From Mycoplasma tullyi (GTDB lineage Bacteria; Bacillota_I; Bacilli_A; Mycoplasmatales; Mycoplasmoidaceae): a stretch of DNA of 64,000 nt. The stretch lies in assembly GCF_014068355.1 (NCBI RefSeq), contig NZ_CP059674.1:186001-250000 (forward strand), given 5' to 3'. Positions 32,568-62,484 of this stretch are shown one piece after another. Every line of letters starts with the position of its first letter. Positions within the stretch are counted from its first letter, which is position 1. A program made the translations under genes and the position numbers. A model generated the notes under the pieces. That model was not told the origin of the DNA. It did not search any database and saw only the letters and a program-made list of their open reading frames with translations.

Positions 32568-34589
32568 GTGAAGAGAAAAAACATATTAAAGTTTGTTAGT
32601 TTATTAGGTATTGGTTCATTTGTAATGTTAGCAGCTGCTAGTTGTAGTCAAGCAGCTAACACTACACAAAATCCTAGTTCTAGAACTGAACTTGGTGGCG
32701 GTAGAATGATGGACATGTCTGGTGGTAATGCTAATACAAATAGCAACCAAGGTATGATGAATTCTGCTGAGACAGAATTAAATCTTGCTAGAGCTCAATT
32801 AACATCACTAATTGATTCTGAGAATCAAAATATTGTAATGTATGAAGATTACGCAAAGATTCAAGCTACCTTGAAAAAAGCATTCACTGATGCTAGAGAT
32901 ATTCTTGTTAAAACTGATTCAAACGCTCAAAGTCTTAAAGATGCTAAATCAACTTTAGAATCAGCTATTTCATCTGCTGAAAAAGAAAAAGCGGATTTTG
33001 ATAAAGAAAATAGTGAATTAGTAACTGCATATAATAGTTTAAAAGAATCATTCAAGAATGGTGAATCTATTGTAGATACTTTGACAGAAGCAAATTATTC
33101 TGCAATTAAAAATAATCTTAACGACTTACTAAAGAAGGTTGAGCCTTTTATTAGAGCAACCTTGATTCCTGTTACTGGAGATACTCCCAAAGCTGAGGAA
33201 GTAACTGTCGCTAACACGCCTCTTGCTACTGCAATTAGATTAAATGCACCTTGAAAAGTAAATGCTGATCGTTTAGTTAATAGTTTTGTTAAAACTGCTT
33301 TAGTTAAGGATGGTTTAACTGGATTAACTGATAGTTATAATATGGCACAACCAGGTAACTATAGTTTTGTTGGTTATAGTGTTCCAGTAGACAGTGTTAA
33401 TTGAAGCTTTGCAAGAAGACAAGTGTTTGAAAGTCTAGTTGCTCCTTTAGTAACTCCACCAGCAGAAAATGGAGTTCCACAACCTGCTCCTTTAACAGAT
33501 GTTTCATGAGTTTATAGTTTATCTGGTGCAGCTAGATATAAACTAACCTTCCGTTATTTTGGAGCTAATCAAGATAAAGCTTATTTATATTTTCCTTATA
33601 AGTCAAATATGATGGATATGGAGAATAATTCGACTATGTTTGGACTTCAATATAGTTTAAATGGTGGCGCTGCTCAAGAAATTAATTTTGCACAAACTCA
33701 AGATTCTCATACAGGTGGTGGATCTAGCGGAACTGATGAAGGTATGAATAAATCTTCTGAAATCAACTTATTACCAACTGTAGATGATATCAAGATTGCT
33801 AGAATTGCTTTATCTAATTTGAAATTTAATTTAAATGAAGTTGAATTCAGTGTTCCTGAAGGAAAAGTTGCTCCAATGATTGGTAATATGTATATAACTT
33901 CATCTGATAGTGATGCTAATAAGAGCAAGATTTATTCAGATATATTCGGTAACACTCTTAATAACGAAAATAGTCCAACATCTGTAACCGTAGATCTATT
34001 AAAAGGTTACAGTCTTGCTACTAGCTACAATACCTATATTCAAAGATTTACAACTTTAAAAGAAGGTGATAGTGATGCAAATATCTCTAAACCAGTTTAT
34101 TTAGTTGGATTTATCGGTGGCGCTCAACCACGTATTGGAAGTCAAAATATTCAAGTGTCGTCGTTTAAAAACGGAAATGAACACCCTAACGAAATTAACG
34201 GGAAAAGAACGTTAACAATTTATGTAAATGCCCCATCTGCAGGTGAATATAATATTAGTGGATCATATATTTCTGCAAATCGAACGATGGGTACAAATGA
34301 TGCACACAGAATGGATACAGTAAGATCATTAACGTTTAAGACTAAAGAAGAAAATTCTCTTACGATTAATGTTATGTCAAAAACACATTTCATGTCTTTA
34401 GAATCATTTGATACAAGTAATAATTCTACTAGTGTTGGTACAACCCATGAAAATAGCGTGACGAAAAGAACAATTAAACTGGAACAAGGTCTAAATAAAA
34501 TAGTTCTTAGTCGTGATACAGGAGATACTCCATTTATAGGAAATTTAACATTTACTTTAAGTAGTACTCCACAAGCCAATGCTAATTAA
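32568..34589 (+). CDS. vlhA: VlhA haemagglutinin lipoprotein (copy 2)
   Basis: The 673-aa product starts at GTG and has the same lipoprotein signal (lipid Cys at residue 26) as copy 1. The linker is rich in Gly, Asn and Met. The helical region, the SWxYSL segment, VAPMIGNMYITSS, VTVDLLKGYSLA and the terminal TPFIGNLTFTL are shared with copy 1; the divergence between them is mostly in surface loops and the linker. The frame is intact. It is arranged head to tail with copy 1, as in vlhA arrays. Confidence 0.93.
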
Positions 34590-34842: not shown

Positions 34843-34940
34843 AAAAAAAACTCACTCGAAAGGAGTTCGAATGAGTTAAGATAGATTGATTTATTTGTTA
34901 TTAATGAATTTATATAGCACGACCCTTCAACGAGTTATAC
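34843..34940 (-). ncRNA. Candidate small RNA, copy 1
   Basis: On the minus strand a near-ideal promoter (TTGACA, 16-bp spacer, TATAAT) is followed after about 98 nt by an intrinsic terminator. The terminator stem pairs AACUCAUUCGAA with UUCGAGUGAGUU over 12 bp when read as minus-strand RNA (one G-U), with loop CUCCU and a U tract; read on the plus strand one pair becomes a C-A mismatch. There is no sizeable ORF, only a possible nine-codon one starting GTG. A second copy with one base difference lies 289 bp away. It matches no RNA family I recognise; function is unknown. Confidence 0.72.
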
Positions 34941-34952
34941 GTAAATATTATA
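34845..34952. repeat. 108-bp direct repeat, copy 1
   Basis: This is identical to 35134-35241 except for one base (G at 34921, T at 35210). The repeat covers exactly the candidate small RNA from its terminator U tract to its -10 box, while the flanks differ. Confidence 0.97.
34849..34877 (-). terminator. Intrinsic terminator of small RNA copy 1
   Basis: A 12-bp stem with one G-U wobble and loop CUCCU, followed on the minus strand by six further U residues beyond the stem. Confidence 0.85.
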
Positions 34953-34974
34953 CACAAGATATTTGAGTTGTCAA
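34947..34974 (-). promoter_or_regulatory. Consensus promoter of small RNA copy 1
   Basis: The minus strand reads TTGACA (34974-34969), a 16-bp spacer and TATAAT (34952-34947). The -35 and -10 boxes both match the housekeeping consensus perfectly. The predicted start is near 34940. Confidence 0.78.
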
Positions 34975-35133
34975 TAATGTTTAGTATTTTTTTTACAAAA
35001 AACAGCAGGTTGTGAATAATAGATTTTTATAGTCTCTAAAAACACACTAACAAAATGTTTTTACAAACTTTAAAAATAAGGAATCTATTGACTAATCTAA
35101 CAATAATAGCTTTAGAATTCAAGTATATAAAAT

Positions 35134-35229
35134 AAAAAACTCACTCGAAAGGAGTTCGAATGAGTTAAGATAGATTGATTTATTTGTTATTAATGAATTT
35201 ATATAGCACTACCCTTCAACGAGTTATAC
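35134..35229 (-). ncRNA. Candidate small RNA, copy 2
   Basis: It has the same sequence as copy 1 with one substitution. Although the -35 region lies outside the repeated segment, it has its own TTTACA-16 bp-TATAAT promoter with the same spacing as copy 1. That independent conservation of a promoter outside the duplicated block supports real transcription in the minus direction. It precedes, and points the same way as, copy 1; the upstream neighbour is a minus-strand membrane-protein pseudogene. Confidence 0.7.
35138..35166 (-). terminator. Intrinsic terminator of small RNA copy 2
   Basis: The same 12-bp stem and CUCCU loop as copy 1, with a slightly shorter U tract. Confidence 0.82.
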
Positions 35230-35235
35230 GTAAAT

Positions 35236-35263
35236 ATTATAACTGATATTTTTGATCTGTAAA
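35236..35263 (-). promoter_or_regulatory. Promoter of small RNA copy 2
   Basis: The minus strand reads TTTACA (35263-35258), a 16-bp spacer and TATAAT (35241-35236). The predicted start is near 35229. Confidence 0.68.
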
Positions 35264-35328: not shown

Positions 35329-35721
35329 TTATTTATAAGGGTTATAGGTACTAATAATGTTTAAGAAGTTAATGTCATTAAATAAATAAGGAATGTAAAC
35401 AAAACCACTAGTTAAATACAGATCATCTTTCTGTTGATCTGTTAACTTATTATCTTCTTTTATAAGTTTAAGGATCTTCCTACGAACAATATAAATATAA
35501 GAAATGATTAAAGCTATAAATAAAACTATTAATAAAACTCCTGGATAGAGCAAATATGTTGCTAGAATCTCAGTTTATGGTTTAGGAGTTTCTTTTCCTT
35601 GCAAGAAGTAAATAACACCAAATGTAGTCAATAGTGCTCCGATAAAAAATGTTATGTAGACAAGAAAAGAAACTATAAGGCGAATGATCGCTAATTTTTT
35701 AAGTAGGTGGTAATTTTCCAT
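35329..35721 (-). pseudogene. Two-span membrane protein interrupted by an in-frame TAA
   Basis: The frame from ATG 35721 runs 48 codons (MENYHLLKKLAIIRLIV..., one membrane span, then GKETPKP), meets TAA at 35577-35575, and continues in the same frame without another stop through a second span (LLYPGVLLIVLFIALIISYI) and a charged region to the stop at 35329. The two pieces together make a plausible 130-codon two-span protein. A single base change would explain the break, so it is a recent pseudogene or a sequencing error. I do not recognise the family. Confidence 0.65.
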
Positions 35722-36065: not shown

Positions 36066-37988
36066 ATGAGAAAAAAAACTAAATTTTATATGTATTCCGT
36101 AGCTGCTTTCAGCTCTTTAGGAATACTTTTATCTTCTTGTAGCACAGCAGCAACAGGTGCAGCTCGAGGTCAATCAGCAAGCACTCAAGGTGGTGGATCA
36201 GCAAGTACAGCTCCAAAAGGAGCGTTTGATGATAAGATCGTTATTCAAACTGCACAAAATAGATTTTTTCCACTAATGCACGCATTTAGTCAAATAGTTG
36301 ATCTATATAACAAGCAATTTGCTAACACTCCAGGATTTTTACCTGTTGAATTACAACAAAGTGAAATGACTAATGCTACAAGTGAAGCACAATTAACTAA
36401 TAATGTTGTAGGAAGTATTCGCTCTAATTCGCCATTAGTACCAAACATTATTTTAGCTAACCTAAACTCAGCTTATCGAATTAATAGTTTTAATCGCTTA
36501 TTAGATTTATCAAATAACCCAATTATTAACGAAAACTATTTCGATAGTGATATCTACAACAACTTTAATAAGATACCTGGTGCTACAGAAAATAGCGATA
36601 AAGTTTTTGCAATTCCATTTAACTTAACAACTACTGACAGTTTAGTATTTAATAAGCCTGTAATGAACTTGCTGTTCAAATTAGTTAAAGATGGTGGTGG
36701 AATGGTAGATGAAAATTCTGAAATCTATAAAGAACTTAAGATGGAAGAAGGTTCTATGGATAAGATTCCTGCTAATAAAAAATGGAAAAATCTAGAGGTT
36801 CAAAATAATCAAGTTTATAAAGATGTAAAGGTTAGTGATGATACCTTTTCAAACCTTGAATCAATGTTTGAATTTGCTAAGAAATTTACAGACGGTCTTA
36901 AAGTAAAAGCAAACCCAGAAGCTACAGGTCAACAAAAAGATCTAAAAGTATTTATGTTAGATTTTGGTCCAGCTGTTTATCAAAAATATCTGTGATCGAA
37001 ATTAGGTAATTCAAGACAGTCTTGATTATGAAACCTTAAAGTTGAAAACAATCAATTTGATTTAGATTTTTCTAATCTAAGAAGAACTACTGATAAAAAT
37101 ACAATTGGAACCACTTACGATTTCTTTAAGAATAGCTATACAACTTTAGGATTAAACGATAATCAAGTTTTAAAATCAATTTATTTTGGAACTGGTGGAA
37201 CATCTGATTGAACGTCATGAGATATTAGAACATATGATACAGCTTTCGGTATCGCTCCACATGTAGGATGAAACCAATCAGTTTTATCTCCTTTCACAAT
37301 TAGAACGTTTAGAGCTAGTAGAGAAGCTGTTACTCAACAAGAAATCGATAACGCAAAAACTAACTTTGCACCAGCAAGTGATGTTTTATGAAAGACTCAA
37401 TTAACTAAATTAGATAAAAGCAATCCAAATAGAAACACCTTCTGAATTGGAGGTTCATCTTTAGTTGGTATTTCAACTTCTAAACAAAGAGATGAACAAA
37501 CTAAGAAATTCTTAGAATGATTATTCAATAATGACACCAGAATTAATGTGCCAGATTCTCCATTAAATAACCTATCAGTAAATCAAATCTTAAACAGTGT
37601 TTCTTCTTACGATTTAACTTCTAAAGAAGCTTTATCTGAAACAGCTCAAAAAGCACTTGAAGCTACTATTGCTAAAGAACAAACCGAAGTTGATAAAGTA
37701 AAAGGCAACCCAACTCCAGAAACATTCAGTAATCCCGACTGATCAAGAATTTATTTAAACAAGGGTGCTTTATCAAGTTTAACGGACTGATTAACATTCA
37801 AAAAAGAATTAACTTCGGATCCTTCTAATAACTCAATTGCTTTCATTCATACTGATGATACAGCAAATCGAATCCTATCTATTCTTAACGGTGCAGTTTC
37901 AGGAATTACGAGAGCACCTGAAGCAACAAATTTAACTAAAGAAAACCTACTAACTCAAATTAATGGTGCTTTAGGATCAACTAATTAA
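36066..37988 (+). CDS. P68/MG185-MG260-like surface lipoprotein (copy 1)
   Basis: The 640-aa product begins with a lipoprotein signal ending LLSSC (Cys 25), then an Ala/Gly/Ser/Thr-rich linker. The body starts with DDKIVIQTAQNRFFPLM, then VVGSIRSNSPLVPNIILANL, YAIPFNLTTT-like (VFAIPFNLTTTDSLVFNKP) and, late in the protein, FWIGGSSLVGIST and FLEWLFNND. This layout resembles ABC-transporter solute-binding proteins and the mycoplasma MG185/MG260 and P68 surface-lipoprotein families. The ligand is unknown. UGA encodes Trp frequently. A paralogue follows in tandem. Confidence 0.7.
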
Positions 37989-62371: not shown

Positions 62372-62378
62372 AAAACCA

Positions 62379-62467
62379 ATAACAGAGGTACCTCTTTTAT
62401 CTAAGATAAAAGAAGTTGAGAAACACTCTTAAAAGTTGATCTGGTTAACACCAGCGTAACGAGTTAT
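62379..62467 (+). promoter_or_regulatory. TPP riboswitch (THI element)
   Basis: The sequence carries the TPP aptamer signatures: TTGAGAAACACTC (the conserved CUGAGA block) and TTGATCTGGTTAACACCAGCGTAAC (the CUGAUCUGGxUAAxxCCAGCGUA block). P1 pairs ATAAC (62379-62383) with GTTAT (62463-62467), P2 pairs AGAG with CTCT, and an optional P3 hairpin CTTTTATC/GATAAAAG (62394-62412) is formed. P5 is CTGG/CCAG. It controls the thiamine-import genes that follow. Confidence 0.9.
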
Positions 62468-62484
62468 CAATCTCACATGTGTGC

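Follow-up and report, generated by a model that had tools for sequence, protein, structure and literature searches.

The window (the whole stretch of 64,000 nt that was analysed) carries on its minus strand two near-identical copies of a putative small RNA gene, each with a predicted promoter and a predicted intrinsic terminator. The features of the locus, with the evidence for each, are as follows.

32568..34589, plus strand: vlhA-type haemagglutinin gene (Pfam Myco_haema), a lineage-specific neighbour
34845..34940, minus strand: distal small RNA copy (copy b); predicted fold and covariance-model match of 121.4 bits, E 3.5e-19 (the copy is part of the model's training set)
34849..34877, minus strand: predicted intrinsic terminator of copy b, a stem-loop followed by a T run; terminator scan and covariation (5/11 pairs double-changed)
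34876..34916, minus strand: 41-nt linker of copy b; 0/41 variable columns, unpaired probability
34917..34940, minus strand: 5′ hairpin of copy b, 8 bp with one internal mismatch and the loop GUUGAA; fold and covariation
34947..34974, minus strand: predicted promoter of copy b, TTGACA-16 bp-TATAAT; 12/12 match to consensus
35134..35229, minus strand: proximal small RNA copy (copy a); covariance-model match of 121.1 bits, E 4.0e-19 (likewise a training copy)
35138..35166, minus strand: predicted intrinsic terminator of copy a, a stem-loop followed by a T run; terminator scan and covariation
35165..35205, minus strand: 41-nt linker of copy a; 10-copy alignment
35206..35229, minus strand: 5′ hairpin of copy a; covariation and comparison of the copies
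35236..35263, minus strand: predicted promoter of copy a, TTTACA-16 bp-TATAAT; 11/12 match to consensus
35341..35721, minus strand: gene for a 129-aa membrane protein, with an in-frame TAA in the window; no Pfam family
36066..37988, plus strand: MG185/MG260-type lipoprotein gene, divergent from the membrane-protein gene in the carrier loci examined

The blocks 34845-34952 and 35134-35241 are identical at 107 of 108 bases with an offset of 289, as the preliminary description of this DNA had reported; the sole mismatch is at 34921 (G/T). The transcript of copy b is predicted to start at ~34940 and to end at ~34843. Both copies have the minus-strand −10 box and the intrinsic terminator ascribed to them earlier, with TATAAT and, ahead of T runs, an identical 12-bp terminator-like stem in each. 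Terminator-like sites in the region number 4 versus 0.3 expected from shuffles. Promoter-like sites in this AT-rich region (12, with 11.3 expected) show no excess over chance, thus the boxes by themselves are weak proof.

The preliminary description had also placed the −35 boxes outside the repeat and had taken promoter activity to be kept independently in the two copies. The boxes do lie outside the block of 107/108 identity, are near-consensus and have the same 16-bp spacing, and TATAAT is kept as well; however, weaker similarity between the copies extends upstream of the block (161 nt at 86%), so that the boxes fall inside the duplication and calling them independent was a slight overstatement. 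Since the similarity runs on in this way, the two −35 boxes probably go back to a single promoter that was duplicated and diverged afterwards, and were not acquired separately. Judged from sequence only, TATAAT is present in eight of the eight upstream regions compared, and a near-consensus −35 box in most of them. Each copy appears to have its own promoter and a same-strand intrinsic terminator, as would be expected of an independently transcribed intergenic small RNA.

Distribution and structure of the RNA

The search of relatives proposed in the preliminary description, made with BLAST and a covariance model, found homologues in 6 of the 11 genomes of the genus. Five of these have the tandem pair (the window genome G000, G003 of M. 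imitans, G005, G009 and G010 of M. bradburyae) and one, G001, has a single copy; in the window genome itself the genome search and the covariance model gave exactly two copies and no others. In the remaining genomes of the genus and in those of the family, covariance-model matches were at chance level only: weak matches (bits 22-30) were sampled, had no consistent helix conservation and were set down to chance. An exact scan for a 29-nt core in one genome per GTDB species, a set that may omit records very close to the window's own, returned only M. bradburyae and M. imitans, and the core was absent from the viral contigs. No Rfam 15 family matched at the gathering score (the best permissive match had E 0.75, and all were far below the cut-offs), and a literature search whose coverage left out most subscription journals found no paper describing the RNA pair. 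The RNA is best called a new and clade-specific intergenic small RNA, apparently specific to the M. gallisepticum group.

The 10 complete copies were aligned, the second M. imitans copy being excluded as it runs into an assembly gap, and all 10 are built alike: eight pairs form a 5′ hairpin, a 41-nt linker follows, and a terminator stem of 11 bp leads into a T run. The folded RNA has a z of −3.7, with 0 of 200 shuffles equally stable, and the one base that distinguishes the window copies (34921 versus 35210) is at the internal mismatch of the 5′ hairpin, which is unpaired. Standard pairs fill 169 of the 169 scored pair cells in the alignment (100%), compared with 38-53% when the alignment is slid out of its true register. 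The count of covarying changes, likewise proposed earlier, gave compensatory double changes in 7 of the 19 pairs (0 of 500 shuffles were as high), two of the eight pairs in the 5′ hairpin and five of the 11 in the terminator stem; because the copies are related, several of them near-identical, the number of independent events behind these counts is small, chiefly the separation of the lineages of gallisepticum, bradburyae and G001. The G-U pair described earlier in the terminator stem exists as claimed: in the minus-strand RNA it reads U-G, and across the species U-G, U-A and A-U all occur. The sequence of the 5′ loop is nearly invariant across the copies. The covariation, with its shuffle control, argues for a conserved RNA secondary structure.

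The linker (TATATAAATTCATTAATAACAAATAAATCAATCTATCTTAA, 41 nt) contains no G. None of its 41 columns varies, versus 22 of 51 in the remainder of the alignment (hypergeometric P 1.7e-7, with columns treated as independent). Having no G, it folds little on itself, and its mean unpaired probability is 0.92-0.96 in the ensembles computed for four representative copies; the last two A of the linker in copy b pair within the terminator stem. The plus strand of the linker has stops in all three frames, and its one open sense frame has no ATG, GTG or TTG. In the 10-copy alignment the RNA has no conserved reading frame, as would be expected of an independently transcribed intergenic small RNA. Helices that change in compensation beside a frozen linker make up the pattern of a functional RNA, and neither that of a coding sequence nor that of a DNA-level element. 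The proposal that the locus holds a conserved, non-coding minus-strand RNA pair is sustained by the pairs in four other species and the single copy in a fifth, together with the compensatory changes in both helices, the invariant linker, the TATAAT boxes and the absence of a conserved frame.

A side observation concerns translation starts in these genomes: in the stretches of G000, G001 and G005 analysed, a Shine-Dalgarno-like word was present within 40 bases upstream of only ~16-19% of predicted starts, the choice of starts being crude.

Genomic neighbourhood and history of the pair

The RNA of the carrier loci is located directly downstream of the gene for the 129-aa membrane protein, on the same strand. 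This gene is intact in G001, G003, G005 and G010 and broken in G009; the RNA is intact in G000 and G009 despite the decay of the gene. On the other side the neighbours differ: G005 has greA there directly, G003 a ferritin-like gene, G000 and G009 have vlhA genes, and G001 has a methylase gene with an unknown gene. The two genes of G001 (L033 3565-5654), one for an Eco57I-like DNA methylase and one of 247 aa with no Pfam match, are situated between greA and the small RNA. We considered vlhA as a general target and rejected it: vlhA adjoins the pair in G000 and G009, yet G001 keeps the RNA although no vlhA-type gene was detected there, and the RNA is thus not tied to vlhA. Elsewhere in the window, a match to the TPP riboswitch aptamer, just over the gathering score, was observed at 62374-62479 (plus strand), downstream of the RNase P RNA gene.

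The near-identity of the copies stops at the transcription unit and the genome has only two copies; the pair thus does not belong to a longer mobile element, which the preliminary description had named as a ground for refutation. Two copies only, and a position beside the same gene in the carriers, do not look like a mobile element or a repeat family.

Comparison of the upstream regions of G000 and G009 gave 0.89 for copy a with copy a and 0.82 for copy b with copy b, and 0.70 and 0.57 within species. The regions group by position; by this evidence, the duplication is older than the split of G000 and G009. Within a species, the two copies have RNA bodies of 98-100% identity, and their promoter regions are only 57-71% alike in G000, G009 and G005. 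Since species-specific changes are common to both copies, this suggests that the copies have been homogenised by gene conversion. The pair in G005 and G010 may stem from the same duplication or from a separate one, and G003, where the copies flank an assembly gap, makes a weak case for the evolution of the pair.

Search for pairing partners

The six carrier genomes were searched for 18 and 21 nt of linker complement with patterns that allow wobble pairs. The numbers of matches were near those of a reversed-pattern control, giving no conserved extended complement in the six carriers, and no strong complement sites were found in them besides the RNA genes themselves. Predicted duplexes with 206 orthologous gene starts of G000, G001 and G005 were no stronger than those of dinucleotide-shuffled linkers; the starts were drawn from about half of each of the three genomes, and as start codons were picked mechanically, some of the tested regions may be misplaced.

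Several candidates were discarded. A conserved 21-nt partial complement near position 298391 of G000 lies on the strand opposite a tRNA-Leu trailer and is not a target, and the sites of the other recurrent partial complements are deep within coding sequences. AACU-type repeats were also considered for a role as translation leaders, but nothing supported it. As for a CRISPR tracrRNA or scaRNA, the RNA shares no extended complement with the repeat of M. gallisepticum F (PMC6199352) in a comparison made by eye only. The tRNA-Leu trailer is itself a conserved, G-less repeat (AATAACTAATAACTAATAAACTAACTAACTT), located at L100 8391-8420 on the tRNA strand after an apparent tRNA-Leu gene (recognised by eye); it was read in G000, G001 and G005, and pattern matches indicate its presence in G009 and G010.

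Candidate mode of action

GcvB and Qrr are trans-acting small RNAs of enterobacteria and vibrios in which hairpins flank an unstructured conserved linker. The window RNA is like them in this arrangement, in its 3′ intrinsic terminator and in its own, here predicted, promoter; Qrr genes, too, occur in several near-identical copies. It differs in that its linker is made of A, U and C, whereas theirs is G/U rich, in having no Rfam match, and in that its targets are putative. MP200 and the MCS RNAs of M. capricolum are small RNAs of mycoplasmas; other mycoplasma small RNAs share with the window RNA a short length, an intergenic location and a genome-reduced host. The window RNA is set apart by the absence of homologues from the other genomes of the genus and of its exact core from the other species in the GTDB scan. 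Mollicutes are generally reported to be without Hfq. A set of short intergenic RNAs from genome-reduced bacteria is available for M. hyopneumoniae (PMC5088518, which cites a set from M. pneumoniae). RNA-seq of M. gallisepticum S6 yielded 79 non-coding transcript units, 56 of them antisense and 23 not (Mazin et al. 2014, PMC4245973); the pair, its homologues and the structure are not described in the accessible part of that paper, and the window RNA may be among the 23 non-antisense units.

The reading that we favour, with about even confidence, is that the tandem genes encode an independently transcribed non-coding RNA of ~97 nt that acts in trans, pairing through its exposed linker. RNA polymerase would start at each TATAAT promoter and the RNA would end at its own intrinsic terminator, its ends being protected by the 5′ hairpin and the terminator. 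The invariant linker would then serve as an open strand that pairs by short stretches with several partner RNAs, and this pairing would alter their translation or decay without Hfq; this is the weakest step. Two copies would provide a higher dose and a second promoter. Whether several mRNAs are bound by short seeds is, in our judgement, evenly balanced: with no excess pairing and no long complement, the proposal rests on anatomy. The lack of a linker complement and of an excess over shuffles at the 206 starts counts against pairing, and so does an invariant stretch of 41 nt, which is long for a simple seed. Given the conservation across related species, the RNA very probably has a useful function.

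The main rival to mRNA pairing is protein binding, possible in our view though to be held tentatively: the linker and the 5′ hairpin would bind an RNA-binding protein or an RNase, which would be sequestered or scaffolded with no mRNA pairing. This would suit the invariance of the whole linker, as opposed to a short seed, the nearly invariant 5′ loop, and the absence of both a long complement and a pairing signal above shuffled controls. Yet the RNA has no repeated motif like that of CsrB-type sponges and no known partner protein, and the pairing test took in only about half of the genes. An element acting in cis or at the DNA level (an insulating double terminator or a binding site downstream of the 129-aa gene, with a roleless transcript) would fit the strong terminators and the fact that the loci examined have the RNA directly downstream of this gene and on its strand. 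We consider it improbable: the RNA is intact where the gene is broken (G000 and G009), each copy has its own conserved promoter, compensatory changes occur in the 5′ hairpin too, and the invariant linker is needless for a terminator.

Very little probability attaches to a short coding RNA. The sole small candidate, a nine-codon frame in the window copies (GUG-CUA-UAU-AAA-UUC-AUU-AAU-AAC-AAA-UAA), recurs in G001 with a synonymous Leu codon, but is without a start codon in G005 and G010, where GUG is replaced by GUA; half of the invariant linker lies downstream of the stop codon, no Shine-Dalgarno sequence is found at a useful spacing, and the open sense frame of the linker is without a usual start codon. 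Much of the non-coding transcription of mycoplasmas has been attributed to noise. AT-rich mycoplasma genomes yield many spurious promoters (PMC5138195), and promoter-like sites are at chance frequency here as well; against the covariation, the invariant linker and the conservation in six species, we give almost no credence to transcriptional noise or a functionless chance repeat.

Taken together with its mostly tandem occurrence, the strong signs of selection on structure and sequence make this RNA a tangible candidate for regulation by RNA in organisms that have very few transcription factors; poultry pathogens are among the members of the clade. It is conceivable, if doubtful, that the clade-specific RNA is a global, Hfq-independent post-transcriptional regulator whose linker is an invariant dock for a dedicated RNA-binding protein or for many short-seed targets. 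Such a regulator would, if real, be at work in bacteria from which almost all transcription factors have disappeared.
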